A stretch of DNA of 28,199 bases, taken from positions 1 through 28,199 of IMG/VR virus record IMGVR_UViG_3300003891_000011. One strand, 5' to 3'. This DNA comes from a virus. A program made the translations under genes and the position numbers. This document shows positions 8,868 to 26,458 of this stretch, piece by piece. Under the pieces are notes generated by a model. That model was not told the DNA's origin. It was given only the letters and a program-made list of their open reading frames with translations, and ran no database searches. The first letter of the stretch is position 1, and the number at the start of each line of letters is the position of its first letter.

Positions 8868-9459
8868 CTATTCTGATTTTATCCTCGTTAATCGCAGAAA
8901 TAATAAGGGGTGGAAACAGAACACAATACTTTGGTTTTTTGTAGGGGCTCTAATTGGGGGAGTGATAAGTATTTTGGTGCTGTCTTTAACTACTAAAAAT
9001 AATAAAGCAGAGATCGCAGAAGTTTTGCCTCAAGTTACTCCCGGATATATCAAGGCCAAGAGTTACATTTTATCATTCAAGCCTCCGTTGAACGACCGGC
9101 AGGTGGATGAGATAATCCGTGAAAGCGCAACTTGTGCTGATATTGCCGGAATATCACCTAATCTATTTTTGGTTTTGATGGCGAAGGAAAGCGGATTTGA
9201 TCCGCTCGCGATGAGCGACGCGTTCGCGATCGGGCTTACTCAGGTGAATTTGGGTGATTGGAGCGATGCCTCCTTTGAAATTGGTTTCAATGTTAGGTCA
9301 GGTTGCCGAAAACTGATTTATTATCTGACCGAATCCCACGGGAATGTAAAAAAGGCCCTAGCTTGGTATAATGGGACAAAGAGAAGGCCGTCGGAAAAAT
9401 TTGCAAAAGATGTTTTGGATTCTTACATAAGGTTGGAAAGGTCAACTATTAACCCCTAA
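8854..9459 (+). CDS. Membrane-anchored lytic transglycosylase (SLT domain)
   Basis: In this 201-aa protein a positively charged N-terminus is followed by a transmembrane helix (residues 25-47). A soluble-lytic-transglycosylase domain follows: catalytic E112 in LMAKESGFDP, the GLTQVN motif at 127-132, and AWYNG at 170-174. It would cut the glycan strands of peptidoglycan, from the cytoplasmic membrane if it acts in lysis, or as part of a virion-associated ejection device. The start at 8854 gives the natural N-in anchor; an upstream in-frame ATG at 8791 would add residues read through the small membrane gene. A copy of the 16-bp palindrome lies at 9275-9290. Confidence 0.85.
   Translation: MDKNNYSDFILVNRRNNKGWKQNTILWFFVGALIGGVISILVLSLTTKNNKAEIAEVLPQVTPGYIKAKSYILSFKPPLNDRQVDEIIRESATCADIAGISPNLFLVLMAKESGFDPLAMSDAFAIGLTQVNLGDWSDASFEIGFNVRSGCRKLIYYLTESHGNVKKALAWYNGTKRRPSEKFAKDVLDSYIRLERSTINP
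9275..9290. repeat. 16-bp palindrome TTGAAATTGGTTTCAA, copy 3 (in SLT gene)
   Basis: Arms TTGAAA and TTTCAA flank a 4-bp centre. The 16 bp are identical to the copy at 23328-23343, right before the prohead protease start. The site lies within the transglycosylase coding sequence, over codons for FEIGFN. Confidence 0.6.
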
Positions 9460-9492
9460 AGGAGGCGGGCTTCCACGCCCGAATATTCTATG
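9453..9492 (+). promoter_or_regulatory. Leader element with hairpin, copy 2
   Basis: This is the second copy of the 40-nt element seen at 1708-1747. CGGGC (9466-9470) pairs with GCCCG (9477-9481) around loop TTCCAC. An alternative pairing of 9453-9456 with 9461-9465 would compete with a GGAGG that is here sequestered 24 nt before the ATG. The element overlaps the transglycosylase stop and ends on the ATG at 9490. The loop change TTCCGC to TTCCAC and a closing-pair change from T-G to C-G keep the hairpin, which suggests selection on RNA structure. Confidence 0.6.
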
Positions 9493-9687
9493 AAGGTGAA
9501 GTTAATGCCAAAGAAAATTACTAGAGATTGGAAGAAAGTTTTAGAAAGGCCTTTTAGCGATGTGCGAGGAAGGCGTTTTACAATGCCTATTTGGAATCCT
9601 AGCAAAAAGATTTTGAATAGCATTGCCCGAAGTGAAGGGTTGGTTGAAAAAAAGAAGAAAGAAAAAAGGCGCGTTTTACCCGAATAG
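9490..9687 (+). CDS. Small basic protein
   Basis: This 65-aa ORF is rich in Lys and Arg (KKKKEKRR near the end) with no recognisable domain. The ATG at 9490 terminates the leader element; ATG 9505 is preceded by AAGGTGA and would give 60 residues, and is equally plausible as the true start. It has the same layout as the helicase gene, whose ATG also ends the element. A nucleic-acid-binding role is possible from charge alone. The function is unknown. Confidence 0.5.
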   Translation: MKVKLMPKKITRDWKKVLERPFSDVRGRRFTMPIWNPSKKILNSIARSEGLVEKKKKEKRRVLPE

Positions 9688-9688
9688 T

Positions 9689-10078
9689 ATGTCAATGAGC
9701 CAGATTAAAGATCGTCCTGATGTTCTCCCGTCAAAAACTTACAGGGTGGAACTTGGGTGCAGGGAGAATCCTGCGGATGAGAATAGCCCAAATTTGACTA
9801 TGTATGTAATAGTATCTGTCGATGAAAATGGAAATCCTTTTGAGGTATTTACTTCGGTCGGCAAGGGTGGTCGGTGTGAGATGGCCGTAATGGAGGGATT
9901 GTGCCGGGCGGTTTCAGTTGGGCTTAGGGCTGGGATTGATCCTCAAGTTTTTATTAAACAACTTCAAGGTATTCGTTGTCCGAGTCCTGTTTTATGGGGC
10001 AAGTCGGAAGTAAAACCTTTATCCTGTGCTGATGGAATAGCTAAGGTTTTGAGAAAAGTTCTTGAAGAATGTGGCTGA
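9689..10078 (+). CDS. Stand-alone TSCPD-domain protein
   Basis: This 129-aa protein consists almost wholly of a TSCPD domain, the C-terminal domain of adenosylcobalamin-dependent (class II) ribonucleotide reductases. Recognisable parts are the TYRVELGC strand, FEVFTSVGKGGRCEMAVMEGLCRAVSVGLRAGIDPQ and IKQLQGIRCPSPV, then LSCADGIAKVL. The spaced Cys residues fit a metal site. There is no reductase catalytic domain in the window, so it either acts on a reductase encoded elsewhere or has its own role. ATG 9689 starts 2 nt after the previous stop with no clear ribosome site; ATG 9695 is the alternative. It is followed by the structured non-coding stretch. Confidence 0.8.
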   Translation: MSMSQIKDRPDVLPSKTYRVELGCRENPADENSPNLTMYVIVSVDENGNPFEVFTSVGKGGRCEMAVMEGLCRAVSVGLRAGIDPQVFIKQLQGIRCPSPVLWGKSEVKPLSCADGIAKVLRKVLEECG

Positions 10079-10103
10079 TCGAAAAGTACTGGAAATGGTC
10101 AAA

Positions 10104-10252
10104 ACAAGGCCTCCGGCAGGGCTGGCCTCCTGTCGAGCCTTGTGCCCGGTGAAAGCGGGCTTCCGCCCCCGGAGATAAAGATGATAATGTAGGGCAACAG
10201 TCCCGCGCCGAAAAACGGCAGCATTATCATTACTAAACCGGGGGCCATTTTT
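10104..10252 (+). ncRNA. Candidate structured RNA between TSCPD and HTH genes
   Basis: The 193-nt gap at 10079-10271 is packed with complementary segments. A: ACAAGGC 10104-10110 pairs with GCCTTGT 10137-10143, enclosing CGGCAGG 10114-10120 with CCTGTCG 10129-10135. B: GCCCG 10144-10148 pairs with CGGGC 10156-10160 around GTGAAAG. C: GCCCCCGG 10165-10172 pairs with CCGGGGGC 10238-10245. D, inside C: ATGATAATG 10181-10189 pairs with CATTATCAT 10222-10230. Inside D are GGG/CCC (10192-10194, 10202-10204) and GCCG-A5-CGGC (10207-10219). Stem C is followed by ATTTTT at 10247-10252, like an intrinsic terminator. It could be an independent RNA or the leader of the HTH gene at 10272. I could not match it to a known RNA family. 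Confidence 0.6.
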
Positions 10253-10271
10253 AGAAACAAGAAAGAAGAAA

Positions 10272-10556
10272 ATGAGAATCAGCAAATTCGGACAAAAATC
10301 TAATACCCTAGCGGAATGGTTTGCCCGCAACAAAGGGATGTCATTCAAGATTGATTCCGGAAAGACTTTCTACTCGACCCTGGAAAAAATCGCTAGAGAT
10401 TCGGGAGTATCTATTAGTTTCGTCGCTGATTACCTATCCATTGACCACAGGAAAGTCTGGAAATATAAATCAGGATCGTTTCCTCGGAAAAAACTATTGG
10501 ACAGGATATCGGAAGAGTCGGGTATTAATTTTGATTATACCAAGAGAAAGTCATAA
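10272..10556 (+). CDS. Small HTH DNA-binding protein
   Basis: This 94-aa protein has an N-terminal basic stretch and a central Cro/C1-like helix-turn-helix pattern: TLEKIARDSGVSISFVADYLSIDHRKVWKYKSGSFPRKKLLDRI. In such regulators the recognition helix is followed by 'xRKVxxYxxGxxxP', as here. It is likely a phage regulator, or a silencing or timing protein for the nearby accessory genes. The start follows AAGAAAGAAGA, a weak ribosome site. It directly follows the structured RNA candidate and precedes the methyltransferase fragment. Confidence 0.65.
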   Translation: MRISKFGQKSNTLAEWFARNKGMSFKIDSGKTFYSTLEKIARDSGVSISFVADYLSIDHRKVWKYKSGSFPRKKLLDRISEESGINFDYTKRKS

Positions 10557-10566
10557 AAGGTGAAAG

Positions 10567-10842
10567 ATGAAAACAAATGAAGAAGGAGATATGGTTTTAG
10601 ACCCGTTTTTAGGTTCAGGCCAAGTAGCGATCATTAGCAAAATGCTTAAACGCCAATATATAGGATTTGAAGTGGTGAAAGAATATTACGAATTTGCCAA
10701 AGAGAGACTGGAAAAAGATATTTATCGGATTAAGAGCAATCTTAAAGAAAATATTTCTCATCCTACCCGGGGAGCCAGTCAATCCTATCCACTGCACCCA
10801 GAGTGGTTAACAGTGCAGGGGAGTTTAGATATACTTTGGTAA
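10567..10842 (+). pseudogene. C-terminal fragment of a DNA methyltransferase
   Basis: This 91-aa ORF starts directly at the SAM-binding motif of a beta-class DNA methyltransferase (GDMVLDPFLGSG), followed by the expected FEVVKEYYEFAKERL helix. The catalytic (D/S/N)PPY half and target recognition region that should precede it are absent. The last 30 residues (HPTRGASQSYPLHPEW...) are unrelated to the family. AAAGGTG precedes the ATG, so it may still be translated. The intact methyltransferase next door has a diverged equivalent of the same segment (GDIVLDPFVGSG). It is most likely a remnant of a deleted or displaced methyltransferase gene; complementation with another half is possible but unsupported. 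Confidence 0.65.
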
Positions 10843-10866: not shown

Positions 10867-11628
10867 ATGATTTGGCCTGATGATTTTGTCGGCAAGATTA
10901 TTTGTGGTGATTGCATTAGGGTTATGGGGGGAATTCCTAATAATTCAATAGATTTAATTGTTACTAGTCCGCCCTATAACTGTGGAGTAGATTACGATGT
11001 TCATAACGATTCAATGCCTTGGAAAGATTATTTAATATGGTGCGAAGGATGGATGTCGGAATGCCGACGAATTCTCAAGCCTGATGGGAGAATATGCATA
11101 AATGTATTGCTTGAGATGGGCATAGAGGATAACAAGAAAAGAATTAGCCCTTTCGCCCACTTTTATCAACTTTTTCAAAAGTGTAAAATAAACTTCTTCG
11201 GATGTCCTGTTTGGGCTGATTCGCACAGGGTAAAATACACGGCTTGGGGGAGCTGGATGAGCGCTAAGTCCCCATATATTTATTGCCCATACGAGGTGGT
11301 GATTATTGGCTATAAAGAGAGGTGGAGAAAAGACAAATCAGGAGAGTCAACTATTAGCAAGGAGCAGTTTATGGAGGGTTGCTCCGGAGTTTGGAAAATC
11401 AAACCTCAAACATCGCAATTTACAAAGGCTAATTTTCCTCTAACTCTACCCGCTATGTGTATTAATCTTTTATCATTTGAGGGAGATATTGTTCTTGATC
11501 CCTTTGTCGGATCAGGGACAACTGCTGTGGTTGCCAAATCCTTGGGTCGAAATTTTGTTGGTATTGAAATCAGTAAAGAATATTGTAAAATAGCAAAGGA
11601 TCGATTAAAGCAGGAAGTGTTGTTGTAA
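10867..11628 (+). CDS. DNA N4-cytosine/N6-adenine methyltransferase, beta class
   Basis: In this 253-aa protein motif IV TSPPYN at residues 33-38 comes before motif I DPFVGSG at 211-217, the beta-class order, followed by NFVGIEISKEYCKIAKDRL, where Glu contacts the SAM ribose. TSPPY favours N4-cytosine but does not prove it. It methylates host or phage DNA at a site that cannot be read from sequence. No restriction endonuclease is adjacent, so it is probably an orphan methyltransferase that shields phage DNA from host restriction or marks it for other processes. The start has a GAGAAGAAAA upstream stretch. A fragment of a related enzyme precedes it. Confidence 0.88.
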   Translation: MIWPDDFVGKIICGDCIRVMGGIPNNSIDLIVTSPPYNCGVDYDVHNDSMPWKDYLIWCEGWMSECRRILKPDGRICINVLLEMGIEDNKKRISPFAHFYQLFQKCKINFFGCPVWADSHRVKYTAWGSWMSAKSPYIYCPYEVVIIGYKERWRKDKSGESTISKEQFMEGCSGVWKIKPQTSQFTKANFPLTLPAMCINLLSFEGDIVLDPFVGSGTTAVVAKSLGRNFVGIEISKEYCKIAKDRLKQEVLL

Positions 11629-13063: not shown

Positions 13064-13777
13064 ATGGCAGGAAACATTAGAGAAAGGACAACGCCAGAGG
13101 GGAAGCCTTCAAGGTTTAAAAGGTTGAGGGAACTTACTTGTTTCCCTGAGGTTGATGCCAGAATCAGGAAAGGTTGGCCTCTCCGTAGTTTGGCAATTTA
13201 CATTCAGGAAGAATGCGGTGAATATACTGATATTACCTTCCAGTCTCTAATAACGACTCTAAACGATTACAGAAAATCATTGCCTCCGGCAGAATTAGTT
13301 AAGGACACAATGCCGGAGATATATGCCGAGGCCGAGAGGAAGATGCGAGAAGGCCTTGACGAAATAGAAGAATACGAGGATTTGTATTGGCTTCAAAGGG
13401 ACAGGATTGCCATTGATTATGCTTCGGAAAAGAAGATAAATAAACTTTTCAAAACTACCGTGCGGGAGGTGGTTGCCGCCGCAGAAATCCTCAAAATGTC
13501 AGCCGATTTGAAAATGGATTTAGGGATTAACCAGCGGCAACTTGGGAAACTTAACATTGATGCAAATCTGATGGCGGAAGTGAGAAATAAATATGGAAAA
13601 TCTCCGATTATAAATGTTATTAATAACCCGTCTTCCAGAAGGAAAATTGAAAATATCCTTGAAAAGGCATTGAGTAAATCAGGAGGGTTGGATCTTCTGA
13701 AGCAGAAGATCGGCTGGAAGCCTGCCGAGGATAGAGTGGTTCTCCCGGTATCTGCACATGAGGTCAAGTCGGAATGA
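13064..13777 (+). CDS. Putative small terminase subunit
   Basis: This 237-aa protein lies immediately upstream of the large terminase gene and overlaps it by 4 nt (ATGA). The N-terminal third (GWPLRSLAIYIQEECGEYTDITFQSLITTLNDYRKSLPP) resembles a DNA-binding helix-turn-helix, the middle is a long charged helical stretch (EIYAEAERKMREGLDEIEEYEDLYWLQRDRI), and the C-terminal half is helical and basic. This layout (HTH, oligomerisation helices) and the position fit a TerS that recognises phage DNA and regulates the packaging motor. There is no single defining motif, so the call is contextual. The ATG directly follows a 16-bp palindrome and lacks a ribosome binding site. Confidence 0.55.
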   Translation: MAGNIRERTTPEGKPSRFKRLRELTCFPEVDARIRKGWPLRSLAIYIQEECGEYTDITFQSLITTLNDYRKSLPPAELVKDTMPEIYAEAERKMREGLDEIEEYEDLYWLQRDRIAIDYASEKKINKLFKTTVREVVAAAEILKMSADLKMDLGINQRQLGKLNIDANLMAEVRNKYGKSPIINVINNPSSRRKIENILEKALSKSGGLDLLKQKIGWKPAEDRVVLPVSAHEVKSE

Positions 13778-16700
13778 TCATAGAAAAAGAAGGTAAGAAT
13801 AAAAGCGTTCTTACCGACGAGGAATTTCTTAAGATTTTCAACGAAGACTTGGAAGCCCTCTCGCCTGAAGACAGAATTGTCCTTCAGCATATTATTGACG
13901 AAATTGAGGAAAAAGAGTCGGAGGAAGAGCCGAAAGATGGTCTTTCTTTGGTTGGCATAATGTCGGAGTTTGATTATGAATATCCTCGAGTAGGAATGAG
14001 GGAGTGGCTGGAGAATGAGTATTATTTTGGGGATATAGGGAAAGAAATATGGCCTCAACTTAAGGAGGACCTGATCACTCTTTTTGAAGGTGATTACCAA
14101 GAGGTGATTTTCGGTGGGGGAATCGGTTGGGGTAAGTGTGTTAGGAAGGATACTGAAATATATGATGTTTTGGCTGGGCGAAGAATTCTGATTGGAGATT
14201 GTAAGGAAGAACCTGTAGTTCAGGGTATAAATCATAATAATGGACTTTCAGAGATAAGAAAGGCGTCATTTGTAGGCAGGACTGGTGTGAAGAAGGTTTG
14301 CGTTCTTAAGTTATCTAGTGGGAAGAAAATAGGTATAAGTCTAGATCATCCTTTATTGACAAAAGATGGGTGGAAGGAAGTAAGGTTATTAAAGGCAGGA
14401 GATTTGATTGCTACTCCAAGGAGGGTGCCTCCTCCTATAAATCCTCTAATTATTTCTAATAGCGAGGTAAAATTCGTAGCTTACATGCTTTCCAAGAAAT
14501 GTGGAGTTAGCGGGACATTTACTAATACTAATGCCGAGATTTTGAGGGAATTCAAAAAAGTTTCTTTGGATATTTGTGATGTTTTGAAGATTAAGCCGTC
14601 AGAGTTTTCTAAAAGAGTTCCGGCCGAGTTCTATGGATTGAGTGATCCCCAACTGGCATTATTTTTGAATAGAATATTTGCTTGTGAAGGCAATATTTAT
14701 TCTGAAGACCTTGCCAAGATAGAAATTTGCTTGTTGAGCGAGAAATTCATAGATGATATACAGTTTTTGCTCTTAAGGTTTGGGATTCATTCAAGAAAAA
14801 TAAAGTTTAAGAAGTTTTATAAGAAGATAGGTGGAAAGAAGAAATGCTTTGATGCATGGATGTTGTCTATAACAGGTGGGGATGAGGTAGTCACTTTTTT
14901 GAAAAACATAGGGTATATCTTCGGCAAGGAAAAGCAGTGCGACGAAATTTTGAGTAAAGTATTGTTAGTAAAAGGGAATACAAATGTTGATATAGCTCCT
15001 ATTGGTAAGGGGTTTTGCTGTAATGTTGGTGTCGATAATAAGTGGGAATGGATATGTTCCGAAGATATTTTCTGGGATGAGGTAGAATCGATTAGAGAAG
15101 AAGGTTTTGAAGATGTTTATGATTTGACCGTTCCAGAAATAGAGTCTTTTGTGGCTAATGGAATTTATTGCCATAATACGCTACTTGCGTCCGTAGGAAT
15201 GTGCCGAATGATTTATGAGGTTTCTTGCCTTCGGAATCCTCAAAATTATTATGGGCTAGCAACCGATTCGAGAATTTCATTTGTCAATGTCAGCATTTCG
15301 CAAAAACTGGCAAAAGAGGTAATTTTCGAATCAATAGTCAACAAATTGGAGAGAAGCCCGTATTTTAAGGAGAGGTTTCCATTTAGTGCCACTCAGTCTG
15401 AAGTAAGGTTTCCGAAAAATGTCTGGATTGCTCCGGCTTCAAGCCAAGACACGAATGTGCTTGGTCTTAATATATTTGGGGGAATCATAGACGAAACAAA
15501 CTTTATGCCCGCGATTAGTCAGCAACAGAGGGCGGTTAATTTTCGATGGCGGCACTTCGATAAGGCAGAATTGCTCTATGGATCAATTCTTCGCAGGATA
15601 AAAAGCCGGTTTATGAAGGGGGGGAGAATACCGGGGAAACTATTCTTAATTTCCTCGAAGAAGGGAACGACTGATTTCACTGAAAGGCGTATTCAAGAAG
15701 CCAAAACTAATCCCCATGTTTTTGTGAGGGAGTATGCAGTTTGGGATGTTGCCCCGCCTGGGACTTACTCGGAAGAAAAGTTTTGGGTGGTAGTGGGGAA
15801 CCAACAGATAGGGCCGAAGATGTTTACTCGCCAAGAGGAGGTCGCTCAATTTGTTGATCAGGAGGATGTAAAAGTTGTAGGAGTTCCGATAGACTTTTTG
15901 AGGGAATTTGAGCTTGACTTAGAAGGGTCTATTAGAGAGACAGCCGGGATTGCTACCCATACTATTTCTCTGTTTTTGCCTCGGCGAGATAAAATCGAGG
16001 CAATGTTTGATAGAGAAAGAAAGCATCCCTTTAGTCGGGAGGAATGGTCAACTAATTATCCATTGCAGTTTGATTGGGCTTCGATGGTGAAGAGGAACCA
16101 GATGGGGGAAATCTGTCCTATTATTAATCCTTCGGCAACTAGACATATCCACATGGATTTAAGCCGGAAAAACGATGCTACCGGATTTTGTATGGCTCAT
16201 ATTGGAGGATTGGTGGATGTAATTCGTGGGACTGGTCCAAATTCCAAGATAGAAAAGAAGCCCCTGATTATCATTGATTTTGTTCTTCGGATTGTGCCTC
16301 CACCGGGAGATGAGATTTACTTGCCAGAGGTCAGAACCTTGATCTATGAACTGGCTGAGCATGGATACCGGATTGGGATGGTAACGATGGATAGGTTCGG
16401 GTCGGATGAGTGTGTTCAACAGCTCAAGGCGAAAGGATACAGGGCTTTCGTTTCGAGTGTGGATATTAATCCCGTTCCTTATGAAGATCTGAAAAATGCG
16501 ATAAACGATGAGCGAATAAAGTGTTATTACTATGCTCCGCTCGAATATGAACTCCTAAATTTGATTAAGGGTAGGGAAACTGGAAAAGTTGACCATCCAG
16601 ACGGAGGATGTAAGGATGTAGCAGATGCGGTAGCCGGAGTGGTTTATTCTCTGGAAAATAAGAAGGTGTTTATGGCTCGGCAAGTTTTGCCTCCGCCAAT

Positions 16701-16914
16701 GATCGGAATCAGCGAGCCCTTCGAAGACGAAGATGAATCGGTAAAGGTTAATAGTGGAATAAACAGAGCGGTTATTCTTCCGCCGATGCTTGGCGGGCCA
16801 GATCCCAAAACTTATAATGGGCCAAGATATACTCGGTATAAAGAGGGTATTACGAAAGATTTAGGAGACACTTATTTGCCTTTTGTTGGGGGGAGAATCC
16901 ATGAAGAAGATTAA
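13774..16914 (+). CDS. terL: Terminase large subunit with intein
   Basis: The precursor is 1046 aa; excision of the intein (residues 122-468) leaves 699 aa. The packaging ATPase shows Walker A GGGIGWGK at 114-121, continuing with T469 after the intein, and Walker B GGIIDE with D573 and E574. The C-terminal RNase H-like nuclease shows D795 (HMDLSRKND), D873 (VTMDRFGSD) and D948/D951 (KDVADAV). It powers DNA translocation into the prohead and cuts the concatemer. It is longer than most TerL proteins, with an acidic N-terminal extension of about 95 residues. It precedes the portal gene as in many phages. Splicing is required for an intact P-loop, so unspliced precursor should be inactive. Confidence 0.95.
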   Translation: MIIEKEGKNKSVLTDEEFLKIFNEDLEALSPEDRIVLQHIIDEIEEKESEEEPKDGLSLVGIMSEFDYEYPRVGMREWLENEYYFGDIGKEIWPQLKEDLITLFEGDYQEVIFGGGIGWGKCVRKDTEIYDVLAGRRILIGDCKEEPVVQGINHNNGLSEIRKASFVGRTGVKKVCVLKLSSGKKIGISLDHPLLTKDGWKEVRLLKAGDLIATPRRVPPPINPLIISNSEVKFVAYMLSKKCGVSGTFTNTNAEILREFKKVSLDICDVLKIKPSEFSKRVPAEFYGLSDPQLALFLNRIFACEGNIYSEDLAKIEICLLSEKFIDDIQFLLLRFGIHSRKIKFKKFYKKIGGKKKCFDAWMLSITGGDEVVTFLKNIGYIFGKEKQCDEILSKVLLVKGNTNVDIAPIGKGFCCNVGVDNKWEWICSEDIFWDEVESIREEGFEDVYDLTVPEIESFVANGIYCHNTLLASVGMCRMIYEVSCLRNPQNYYGLATDSRISFVNVSISQKLAKEVIFESIVNKLERSPYFKERFPFSATQSEVRFPKNVWIAPASSQDTNVLGLNIFGGIIDETNFMPAISQQQRAVNFRWRHFDKAELLYGSILRRIKSRFMKGGRIPGKLFLISSKKGTTDFTERRIQEAKTNPHVFVREYAVWDVAPPGTYSEEKFWVVVGNQQIGPKMFTRQEEVAQFVDQEDVKVVGVPIDFLREFELDLEGSIRETAGIATHTISLFLPRRDKIEAMFDRERKHPFSREEWSTNYPLQFDWASMVKRNQMGEICPIINPSATRHIHMDLSRKNDATGFCMAHIGGLVDVIRGTGPNSKIEKKPLIIIDFVLRIVPPPGDEIYLPEVRTLIYELAEHGYRIGMVTMDRFGSDECVQQLKAKGYRAFVSSVDINPVPYEDLKNAINDERIKCYYYAPLEYELLNLIKGRETGKVDHPDGGCKDVADAVAGVVYSLENKKVFMARQVLPPPMIGISEPFEDEDESVKVNSGINRAVILPPMLGGPDPKTYNGPRYTRYKEGITKDLGDTYLPFVGGRIHEED
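14137..15177 (+). other. Intein in TerL, LAGLIDADG type, degenerate endonuclease
   Basis: The intein is 347 aa. It starts with Cys (CVRKDTEIY) directly after Walker A Lys121 and ends with YCHN before Thr469. Block B is GISLDHPLLT with the conserved His; blocks F and G are GFEDVYDLTVPEIESFVANG then HN. The middle resembles a LAGLIDADG homing endonuclease (QFLLLRFGIHSRK pattern), but the first motif reads VAYMLSKKCGV without its Asp and the second reads RIFACEGN with Glu for Asp. Splicing residues look intact while the nuclease looks dead. The insert appears more A/T-rich and uses more AGA/AGG arginine codons than the exteins. Confidence 0.92.
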
Positions 16915-17269: not shown

Positions 17270-20200
17270 ATGGAACATGAACTTTTTGAGCAAAATCCTT
17301 CTGCTGCGGCTCAGCCAATAACTGAGCCGAAGACCGGTGGAATTCAACTGGTGAAGCCTTTTCTTGGCCTTTCTAACCGGGTCAAGAACTTTATCAGTTC
17401 AATTTTCCAAAGAGAAAAAGAGCCGCGAACGGAGATAAAAGGCAAGTGGCTTCAGGATTATTCGCTATTTGCCGCTTATGGGTATCAGGATATTGCGGAA
17501 TATCTACGGCTCGAATGGGATTTACAGAGTCGCTATATCGACTACGAGGATATGGAGGACATCCCGGAAATATCCTGCTTAACCGGAGATAGTTTGATTC
17601 ATACAATAAACGGGCCCATCTCGATTAAGGAGATGGCCGACTCTGGCAAAGACTACCTTGTTTATTCTTACGATTTTGATTTGAGAACTGTTGTTTTGGC
17701 TAAAGGGAAAAATGCCAGAAAGACGGGAAAAAGGGTTGAGATTTGGAGAGTGGTGTTGGATGATGGTCGGGTGATTAGGGGGACAAAAGAGCATTTATTT
17801 TTGATGAGAAGCGGAGATTATGTTGAACTTGGAAAGCTAAAACCCGGTGATTCTATAATGCCGTTTCTGACCAGACTCGGGCTGAAAGGATATTTAGAAG
17901 TGTTTCAGCCGGGGTGGGAATCTTCCGGGAAAAGAAAGAGATGGGAACCTAATTATCGAATTGTTGGGAGATTTTTATTTGGGAGAGATTTTGATAAAAA
18001 TCTGTTTATTCACCATAAGGATTTTGATAAACTAAACGATTCCCCTGAAAATCTTGAGCTATTAACCAAAGAAGATCATTTGTCCAGACACGAAGAAGTA
18101 GTGGTTAAGTGTGCTGATGGACATAGAATTTCTAAAGATGTTATGGAAAAAATTAGAAATTTGAGGGACGAAGGTTTATGTCCTGCTGATATAGCAAAGG
18201 CAGTTGGGTGTTCTTGGTCAACAGCCAAAAGATATTCAGAAAGTAAAGGATATTATAATCTGGATAGATTTTTGGTAAACCACAAGGTTTTGAAGGTTGA
18301 GCCTGCCGGTTATGAAGATGTTTACGATTTCGAGGTTCCTGAATATCACAATTTTGCGGTCAATGGGGTTTTTGTTCATAATTCAGCACTCGACCTGACT
18401 GCAGATGACGCCACCCAGCCAGATCCAAATACCGGACTTTCAATTTGGGTAGATGCTCAAGATGGGGAAATAAAGAAAGAATTGAACTTAATGCTACACC
18501 GAAATCTCAGGATTGAAGAGGAGATTTGGGAAATTGTTAGAACTTTAGTAAAGTATGGGAATGAGTATGAGGAATTGCTTGTCACCGATTCTGGAGTAGT
18601 TGGATTGAATTTTCTTCCCCCGCCTACTGTTAGGAGGGTCGAAAAAGACAAGGGGGTATTGCTAGGCTTTATTCAAAGCGTTACGGGGGCAGGATTCAAT
18701 ATTACCGCGGAACAGTTTGAGGATTACCTGAAGAACCCCACAAAAATTAATGTTACCACCGATTCTATTTTTGAGGATTGGATGGTAATGCACATAAGGC
18801 TCAGGTCAAAGCAGAGGAGGTCGAAGTATGGTTATTCTTTGTTGGAGTCCGCTCGATGGATTTGGAAAAGACTGGTGATGTTGGAAGATGCGGCCCTAAT
18901 TTATAAATTATGCCTTCGTGGTGATTCGCCTATTTGGACAACTTCGGGATATAAGAAGATTAAGGATTTGGTGGAAGGAGAGGAAATATATTCTTTTGGG
19001 GTAGATGGGAAGTTGAAAAAGACGAAAGTAGTTTATAAAAAATATAATGGTCAAGATAAGATATTTAGGGTTTATAGTAAGCACCGGGAAATTTTTGCGA
19101 ATAAAACTCATCCTATTTTAGTTGAGATTGTTGATAGGTTTGGAAAAGGAAGAAAGAGAGTTAAAAGACTTGAATATGTTGAGGTGCAAAATTTGATTCC
19201 TGGCTATCATAGATTTGTGATGCCGAAAAGAGACGAGAACGATTACGAAGAGATTAAACTTATGTTTCCTCAAGTGGGAACTAAGGCAAGATTATCTAAA
19301 GATGCTATAAAGTCCGGAATTAAGATGATGAAGGGGATAAAATATTTACAAGATAATTGTGGAATGCAAGATAATTTAATCAAGATGTTTTTTGATGGTG
19401 ATTATGAGGTAGTAGGAAATACTGTTATTAAGGTAATGAATGAGAATGGAAATGATTCTGATTGTCTTGATTTTAGGGAAGATTGGGGTGGGGTTAAATC
19501 TGTTAATCTTCCAAGAGTTGTTGATGAAGATTTTGCTCGGTGGTTTGGTTTTATGATTGGTGATGGATTTATAGCGGAGCGTCATCTTGGCTTTGCTTTG
19601 GGTGACAATGAGATTATCAATGAAAGATATAAGAGATTATTTGAGAAATTTGTTGGAGAGGTTAGTTTTAGTGGGGAGGATGAAAGTGGAAGATTTGGAA
19701 GTTATTATGTTTATTCCAAAAAGTTTGTTGAATTTATGATTATGAACGGATTTATCCCAGGTGCTCATAATAAAAGAGTCCCCGAGTGGGTATATAGGGC
19801 AAAGAATTCTATTAAGCTTGCTTTTCTTGAAGGGTTTATAGATGCAGATGGACACAGGAGGACAAGAAACGAATCCGGTGGGGTTAGAAATGATATTGAG
19901 GTATGTAATAAAGTTTTGCTTGAAGATATTAGGCAGTTGTGCATGCAGTTGGGAGTTTCGGTTGGGAAGATTAGCGAGAGAGTCAGAGAAGGGCATTTGC
20001 TTAACGGAAGAATGATTTCCAGAACCGTATCCTATGGATTAACTTTTTCTTTAGATAATTTTGCCGAAAGAAGTGAACCGATTTTGGGAATTGAAGAGGT
20101 TGGAGCTGACGATATTTGGGATATTGGGGTTGATTCTGATGAACATAATTTTGTTGATGATGGAGTTGTGGTTCATAATACCAGAGCCCCGGCTCGTTAT

Positions 20201-21154
20201 GCTTTTTATGTGGATGTGGGAGAATTGCCTCCGCAGGAAGCGATTGCCTATGTAGAAAAGGTTAGGCAATTCTATAAAAAGAAGAAGGTGATCGACCCTC
20301 AAACAAACAGGTTGGACACCCGGTTTAACGTCCTTAGCTCAGACGAAGACTTTTTTGTACCCACTCGAAAAGGTAAGGAAGGATCAAAGATTGATGTTCT
20401 GGAGGGGCCGAGTTGGCAGGGTATCGAAGAACTGGAATATTTTAGAAATAAGTTATTTTCAGCCCTGAAAATCCCGAAGGCTTATCTTGGGTATGAGGAA
20501 AGCATAAATGCAAAGGCGACTTTGGCTCAAGAGGATATTCGGTGGGCTCGGTCAATTTTGCGGATTCAGAGGGAGATTAGGCAGGGATTTGCTCATATTT
20601 GTCGAGTGCATTTGGCGGCGCGGAATATTGATCCGGAAGTAGTGGAGTTTGATGTCGAAATGACCGTTCCTTCGGCTGTTTTTGAGATGGCAAAACTGGA
20701 AGTGGAGACTGCTCGGGCGGAATTGGCGGAAAAGATGGGGGAATATGTTAGCCGAGGATGGATAATGAGGAACATATTTGGATTCTCCGATGAAGAAGTT
20801 GAGGTTATCGCAAAGGAAAAAGCCAAAGAAGAAGGAGGCGGTGAAGAAGAAGGGGCGGCGGGGGAGTCTGCCGAATATCCTAGGCGGGCTTACGGATATG
20901 TGAAGCCGGGAATTGGACTACGGAAATTGGCTAAAAAATATCCACTTGCTACCTCTTCTCCTTTGGTTGGGGATAAAAATCAGCAAGTTCCACTTGAGAT
21001 TTATCTTTCCGAAGGCAATAAAGATATGGAGAAATACATAGAGGATAATTTTCAGAAAATAGCTAGGGGAAACCGGGATTTGATGTCGAGATTGAACGAG
21101 ATTCGAAGTTTTATGACCGAACTGAAATATGTTATTGCGTCTCGACGGGCATGA
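17270..21154 (+). CDS. Portal protein with two inteins (gp20-like)
   Basis: The precursor is 1294 aa; removal of inteins at residues 103-371 and 548-970 leaves 602 aa. Exteins carry portal signatures: LRLEWDLQSRYIDYEDMEDIPEIS-SALDLTADDATQPD, NLRIEEEIWEIVRTLVKYGNEYEE, and the T4 gp20-type motif KL-TRAPARYAFYVDVGELPPQEA followed by IPKAYLGYEE and the C-terminal clip and wing helices. The last 90 residues include a Glu/Gly-rich linker and a basic end. The portal forms the dodecameric DNA channel at the head vertex. Both inteins interrupt highly conserved segments. The stop overlaps the next ATG as ATGA. Confidence 0.93.
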   Translation: MEHELFEQNPSAAAQPITEPKTGGIQLVKPFLGLSNRVKNFISSIFQREKEPRTEIKGKWLQDYSLFAAYGYQDIAEYLRLEWDLQSRYIDYEDMEDIPEISCLTGDSLIHTINGPISIKEMADSGKDYLVYSYDFDLRTVVLAKGKNARKTGKRVEIWRVVLDDGRVIRGTKEHLFLMRSGDYVELGKLKPGDSIMPFLTRLGLKGYLEVFQPGWESSGKRKRWEPNYRIVGRFLFGRDFDKNLFIHHKDFDKLNDSPENLELLTKEDHLSRHEEVVVKCADGHRISKDVMEKIRNLRDEGLCPADIAKAVGCSWSTAKRYSESKGYYNLDRFLVNHKVLKVEPAGYEDVYDFEVPEYHNFAVNGVFVHNSALDLTADDATQPDPNTGLSIWVDAQDGEIKKELNLMLHRNLRIEEEIWEIVRTLVKYGNEYEELLVTDSGVVGLNFLPPPTVRRVEKDKGVLLGFIQSVTGAGFNITAEQFEDYLKNPTKINVTTDSIFEDWMVMHIRLRSKQRRSKYGYSLLESARWIWKRLVMLEDAALIYKLCLRGDSPIWTTSGYKKIKDLVEGEEIYSFGVDGKLKKTKVVYKKYNGQDKIFRVYSKHREIFANKTHPILVEIVDRFGKGRKRVKRLEYVEVQNLIPGYHRFVMPKRDENDYEEIKLMFPQVGTKARLSKDAIKSGIKMMKGIKYLQDNCGMQDNLIKMFFDGDYEVVGNTVIKVMNENGNDSDCLDFREDWGGVKSVNLPRVVDEDFARWFGFMIGDGFIAERHLGFALGDNEIINERYKRLFEKFVGEVSFSGEDESGRFGSYYVYSKKFVEFMIMNGFIPGAHNKRVPEWVYRAKNSIKLAFLEGFIDADGHRRTRNESGGVRNDIEVCNKVLLEDIRQLCMQLGVSVGKISERVREGHLLNGRMISRTVSYGLTFSLDNFAERSEPILGIEEVGADDIWDIGVDSDEHNFVDDGVVVHNTRAPARYAFYVDVGELPPQEAIAYVEKVRQFYKKKKVIDPQTNRLDTRFNVLSSDEDFFVPTRKGKEGSKIDVLEGPSWQGIEELEYFRNKLFSALKIPKAYLGYEESINAKATLAQEDIRWARSILRIQREIRQGFAHICRVHLAARNIDPEVVEFDVEMTVPSAVFEMAKLEVETARAELAEKMGEYVSRGWIMRNIFGFSDEEVEVIAKEKAKEEGGGEEEGAAGESAEYPRRAYGYVKPGIGLRKLAKKYPLATSSPLVGDKNQQVPLEIYLSEGNKDMEKYIEDNFQKIARGNRDLMSRLNEIRSFMTELKYVIASRRA
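17576..18382 (+). other. Portal intein 1, HNH homing endonuclease type
   Basis: This 269-aa intein starts CLTGDSLI (block A), has block B GTKEHLFL, and ends YHNFAVNGVFVHN before Ser (residue 372). Between the splicing blocks is an HNH nuclease motif: FIHHKDFDKLNDSPENLELL then EDHLSRH, with His, Asn and His all present. A helix-turn-helix follows (CPADIAKAVGCSWSTAKRY), a typical DNA-binding accessory of such endonucleases. All splicing and nuclease residues look intact, so both activities may be live. Confidence 0.93.
18911..20179 (+). other. Portal intein 2, LAGLIDADG type with intact motifs
   Basis: This 423-aa intein starts CLRGDSPIW and ends EHNFVDDGVVVHN before Thr (residue 971). Block B is FANKTHPIL. 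The endonuclease has both LAGLIDADG motifs with their acidic residues: FGFMIGDGF and LAFLEGFIDADG. The insertion splits the portal motif KL-TRAPARYAFYVDVG. The region is visibly A/T-rich and uses AGA for many arginines, unlike the flanking exteins, consistent with transfer from another genome. Confidence 0.94.
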
Positions 21155-26389: not shown

Positions 26390-26414
26390 GAGAGGGTGGT
26401 ATGAAGGAATGGGA

Positions 26415-26458
26415 GACAGGGGGGTCACCTCAAAAATGACCCCCCTGTCCTCGTTTTT
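26415..26458 (+). terminator. Strong intrinsic terminator after the capsid gene
   Basis: A perfect 13-bp stem, GACAGGGGGGTCA (26415-26427) with TGACCCCCCTGTC (26437-26449), loop CCTCAAAAA, is followed by CTCG and T5. It is the clearest terminator in the window and separates high-level capsid expression from the downstream neck genes. Confidence 0.9.

Follow-up and report, generated by a model that had tools for sequence, protein, structure and literature searches.

Genomic context of the folded gap

The window, meaning the whole stretch of DNA analysed here (28,199 nt), makes up the opening 28.2 kb of an IMG/VR virus contig that is 55.5 kb long and carries nearly all of its genes on the + strand. 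The source is an uncultured T4-like phage. Its major capsid protein is T4 gp23-like, with 35.6% identity to the 595-kb phage LR756511, followed by matches to Bacillus phage SP-15 and then Listeria phage LIS04, and the capsid alignment comprised 80 T4-like relatives at 39-55% identity. Because the closest capsid relatives found in IMG/VR were only ~55% identical, the phage appears to represent a lone lineage in the collections searched.

Within this genome, a gap of 193 nt between a TSCPD gene and a small gene on the same strand with a predicted helix-turn-helix (HTH) fold is filled by an element that would fold as RNA (Table 1). B12-dependent ribonucleotide reductases have a C-terminal part to which the TSCPD domain is related. 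The 94-aa protein encoded downstream has no Pfam, PHROG or NCBIfam match; its single-sequence structural model (pLDDT 78.5) gave weak Foldseek matches to HipB, SinR and the C proteins of restriction-modification systems (best E 0.1), which tentatively suggests an XRE-like HTH regulator. The HTH gene proposed in the initial annotation is retained as a predicted fold with weak matches and no profile match, while the TSCPD gene and the broken methyltransferase named with it were borne out by Pfam. The methyltransferase fragment is roughly half identical, over 47 residues, to the C-terminus of its complete neighbour, which suggests a past rearrangement. A 35-codon frame at 10071-10178 was rejected as a gene, being in our judgement no more than expected for GC-rich DNA.

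Table 1. Positions, strand and supporting evidence for features in and around the folded gap.
Feature	Positions	Strand	Evidence
Upstream gene, stand-alone TSCPD domain	9689-10078	+	Pfam PF12637, E 7e-20
Possible outer stem, 9 bp (10089-10097/10246-10254)	10089-10254	+	gain -8.0 kcal/mol
Structured intercistronic RNA (predicted), whole	10104-10252	+	MFE -71.2 kcal/mol, z -5.0, 0/2000 shuffles
Domain 1: 15-pair hairpin, 7 + 8 bp around a 3x1 internal loop	10104-10143	+	MFE -21.4, z -2.8
Domain 2: GCCCG-GUGAAAG-CGGGC hairpin, directly abutting domain 1	10144-10160	+	probability 0.98-1.0, z -2.1
Domain 3: 8-bp GC-only stem, 7x6 internal loop, 11-bp A/U-rich stem, three-way junction	10165-10245	+	
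T5 run, two bases past closing stem	10248-10252	+	sequence
Downstream gene, 94 aa, predicted XRE-like HTH fold	10272-10556	+	single-sequence model, Foldseek
C-terminal fragment, N6/N4 DNA methyltransferase	10567-10842	+	PF01555, positions 180-221 of 221 only
Full-length N6/N4 DNA methyltransferase	10867-11628	+	PF01555, E 3e-43

Predicted fold and its stability

All stems named in the initial annotation are present in the sequence, two of them slightly longer than described: the 14-bp hairpin said to precede the main structure has 15 pairs, and the 9-bp A/T-rich stem (10181-10189/10222-10230) extends to 11 bp (10180-10190/10221-10231). The closing stem of domain 3 was found as claimed (10165-10172/10238-10245), its 8 pairs all G-C, with pairing probabilities of 0.95-1.0 except in the outermost pair, where the value is 0.65. 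The same holds for the T5 run that follows it and for the two small hairpins inside the A/T-rich stem, which are held in the three-way junction; one of these (10192-10195/10200-10203) has a probability of ~0.72 and an alternative slipped by one base, and the other (10207-10210/10216-10219) a probability of ~1.0. The stem of domain 2 pairs 10144-10148 with 10156-10160. A tiny open reading frame, ATG ATA ATG TAG, lies inside domain 3 at 10181-10192.

The predicted minimum free energy of the whole element compares with ~-50.8 +/- 4.1 kcal/mol for dinucleotide shuffles, and domain 3 with its tail (10165-10252) deviates even more strongly when folded alone (MFE -39.0, z -6.1), again with none of 2000 shuffles as stable. 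The - strand of the whole element folds less well (z -2.8). Only two intergenic regions in the 55.5-kb contig reach z <= -4.8, the folded gap being one, and in a sliding scan of both strands in 150-nt windows the element ranked second of ~1,120, beside the capsid-gene terminator region. The nested arrangement, in which an 8-bp stem of G-C pairs only closes around an uninterrupted stem of 9 bp or more, appears a single time on the contig's + strand, in 0 of 200 shuffled contigs and in 0 of 20,000 shuffled gaps, counts that are descriptive because the motif was defined after being seen. The fold is real and strongly non-random, and computation likewise establishes its strand bias and its position in the gap. 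We do not claim the outer 9-bp stem, which would close the fold into a four-way junction, because shuffled flanks pair as well in 187 of 2000 trials (9%) and genomic flanks in 1536 of 2000 (77%).

Alternative pairings and transcription signals

The initial annotation had also held that segment 10155-10172 can pair in three mutually exclusive ways, as in a riboswitch. This is overstated, since two of the pairings (10144-48/10156-60 and 10165-72/10238-45) are both formed in the best fold. Exclusive local hairpins do exist, and forming those at 10157-60/10165-68 or 10155-58/10163-66 carries a penalty of ~5.5 kcal/mol once the transcript is complete. A third, at 10161-65/10170-74, is predicted only in transcripts ending before ~10245; when growing transcripts were folded, it lasted until position 10245 was made and was then displaced by the closing stem.

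From 9116 to 10694 the + strand shows no sigma70-like promoter, and a terminator scan of the gap, covering loops of 3-8 only, returned no site. A terminator was defined as a compact GC-rich hairpin with a U-tract and a positive d'Aubenton-Carafa score. Because domain 3 with the T5 run scores -4.4, below threshold, against +15.2 for the hairpin after the capsid gene, it is not considered a canonical terminator. In the predicted fold, the nucleotides immediately before the HTH start codon are also left unpaired. With its pairings partly compatible, the start of the HTH gene open and the terminator score below threshold, the riboswitch-like behaviour first proposed for the element seems unlikely.

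Two further signals were observed elsewhere in the window. A strong intrinsic terminator, a long GC hairpin followed by TTTTT, lies at 26412-26458 just after the gp23-like capsid gene, and hairpins occur at the same post-capsid position in several related phages. At the left end of the contig, a textbook sigma70 promoter (TTGACA-N17-TATAAT, 15-50) is the only one with perfect hexamers on the + strand.

Search for homologues and known RNA families

No Rfam 15 family reached its gathering score in the window, and nothing meaningful appeared at E up to 5, the only permissive hit being toga_FSE on the - strand (14.7 bits, E 3.2); the element itself matches no Rfam 15 family. ARAGORN found 0 tRNA or tmRNA genes. 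An HDV-like or hammerhead ribozyme was weighed by visual inspection alone and dropped, and Rfam supports neither. Searches with blastn against phages, plasmids and E. coli gave chance-level matches only; a 19-nt match to Manatee Spring phage MW202512 was discounted as confined to domain 2.

Relatives were sought through a protein-guided search with the HTH, TSCPD, ParB-like and capsid proteins as queries; in the 80 T4-like phages of the capsid alignment the RNA model gave no meaningful match. Across 88 loci, a covariance model built from the single sequence recovered the window itself only, plus one 12-bit match to the domain 2 hairpin. The model had no match in 50 related virus records, nothing beyond one 11-bit match (E 0.9) in the upstream regions examined, and no match in ~800 bacterial genomes, which came from two phyla picked without knowledge of the host. 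Four exact-pattern scans of IMG/VR and GTDB led to coding or unrelated DNA with no meaningful covariance-model match, 39 loci of one scan being checked by alignment only, and the context of loci from the first three scans was no more similar than shuffled flanks. The covariance-model search in related phages thus yielded no homologue among the collections searched. A model built on one sequence has little power for distant relatives, and the bacterial genomes were chosen blind to the host, which makes the negative result a lack of evidence and not evidence that homologues are absent. Judged by these comparisons, the element appears to be an orphan outside any known family. What stands of the "new phage structured RNA" originally proposed is a strand-biased, strongly folded non-coding stretch with no Rfam match; the search for homologues gave that proposal no support.

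A putative cis-acting element between two genes

Our tentative first choice, which we place just short of probable, is a cis-acting intercistronic mRNA structure within a polycistronic phage transcript. As RNA polymerase leaves the TSCPD gene, the 5' hairpins of domains 1 and 2 would form first and the branched domain 3 after them. The folded block may then act as a boundary that keeps exonucleases from attacking the upstream message at its 3' end, and/or as a point of processing or partial termination, and it would insulate the HTH and methyltransferase genes, the first of which begins 20 nt further on with a start region expected to stay unpaired. Such a role is consistent with a fold that deviates more from shuffles on the coding strand (z -5 to -6) than on the opposite one (z -2.8), with same-strand genes on both sides, and with a gap holding no sigma70-like promoter or terminator-like site. 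Stable helices are predicted between the same-strand genes, and we infer that the element is transcribed, that it shares a transcript with its neighbours and that it serves as a boundary or processing site. Two features fit less well: a simple barrier would not call for anything as elaborate as the three-way junction, and the T5 tail is rightly placed for true termination or for a discrete RNA. A cis-acting structure nevertheless seems the most economical reading of its putative function.

The same T5 run, two bases past the closing stem of a compact branched fold, is what a discrete phage non-coding RNA would be expected to have if it acted in trans or bound a protein and was released at that point by termination or processing; the folded stretch also has 58% G+C against 43% for the window, and the possible outer stem would pair its 5' flank with the T5 run. 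We nonetheless regard this as unlikely, given that the promoter scan found no promoter-like site, the terminator score is below threshold, the outer stem is not above chance and no collection searched held a homologue. That the element represents a phage structured RNA of a class not seen before, whether a discrete non-coding RNA or a riboswitch, controlling a cassette of an XRE-like regulator and a DNA methyltransferase, we rate lower again, as quite unlikely.

Function at the level of DNA is less probable still. The 11-bp inverted repeat can be read as two half-sites, and the adjacent HTH protein resembles the autoregulating HipB and C proteins, as would suit an operator for an XRE-like regulator, but the arms are 30 nt apart and the nested GC stems are unlike the usual HTH operator. 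Hairpins left behind by a recombination or mobile element that also truncated the methyltransferase would agree with the past rearrangement suggested by its fragment; however, the contig holds no second copy and none was found in the public collections searched, whereas a mobile element would be expected to have further copies. The strand asymmetry of the fold favours RNA over either version.

We give slightly less credence to the idea that the leader of the HTH and methyltransferase genes contains a riboswitch or attenuator, in which domain 3 with the T5 run would stop transcription and a hairpin taking 10161-10174 would permit read-through. The transient hairpin 10161-10165/10170-10174 predicted for the growing transcript speaks for such a switch, and GGAG lies six bases before the tiny reading frame within domain 3, so that ribosome binding could break the closing stem. 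Against this, the alternatives tested carry a cost of ~5.5 kcal/mol in the full transcript, the terminator score is negative and the HTH start is not sequestered; for a riboswitch in particular, there is no Rfam riboswitch match and a conserved aptamer core is not recognisable from one sequence. Least probable is that base composition and chance pairing account for a functionless fold, as might be argued from a conservation that could not be shown and from the position of the element in one of the few long gaps, of high G+C, in a compact contig, since no dinucleotide shuffle in 2000 was as stable and the nested arrangement was missing from 200 shuffled contigs.

Comparison with known systems

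RNase III processing takes place between genes of T7. In T4, intercistronic RNA structures with regulatory roles are documented (PMC3014915), and by analogy we infer that the element may work like such known phage structures. As in the T-even phages and T7, a stable RNA fold lies between co-directional genes and would be expected to act in cis on the message, whereas the element in the gap is larger and branched compared with the structures of T4 genes 38 and 25 and the T7 RNase III sites. Unlike the split ribosome-binding sites of T4 genes 38 and 25, it does not lie between a Shine-Dalgarno sequence and its start codon. With the Rho-independent terminator at 26412-26458 it shares a GC-rich stem followed by T5 and AG, but it differs in being an 81-nt branched hairpin with a negative rather than a strongly positive terminator score. 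Strong intercistronic folds are ordinary in this group, since related phages have other strongly folded gaps, for the most part plain hairpins of terminator type, many located directly behind the capsid gene.

Comparative genomics has yielded candidate structured RNAs in the neighbourhood of phage genes (PMC8040213, PMC2864571), and like them the element is an apparently orphan folded intergenic stretch near phage-type genes; those candidates have many covarying homologues, in contrast to the single sequence here. Phage structured RNAs are under-surveyed and often orphan. Without a homologue the element alters no current view. Its clear, strongly non-random fold, lying beside a regulator gene and a methyltransferase gene, makes it a reasonable target for transcript mapping.

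Other features of the window

At 9458-9492, a strong Shine-Dalgarno sequence, AAAGGAGG, is set apart from the ATG at 9490 by a CGGGC-UUCCAC-GCCCG hairpin; with the hairpin folded out, the spacing from AAAGGAGG to this ATG would be 8 nt. The arrangement resembles the split ribosome-binding sites of T4 genes 38 and 25 (PMC3014915). It is only a candidate, because the predicted fold of 9456-9500 also pairs part of the Shine-Dalgarno sequence and because there is an alternative start at 9505 with a Shine-Dalgarno sequence of its own, AAGGTGA. Further downstream, reading the sequence alone, a terminase-like gene (13774-16914) apparently carries one intein-like insertion and a portal-like gene (17270-21154) apparently carries two.
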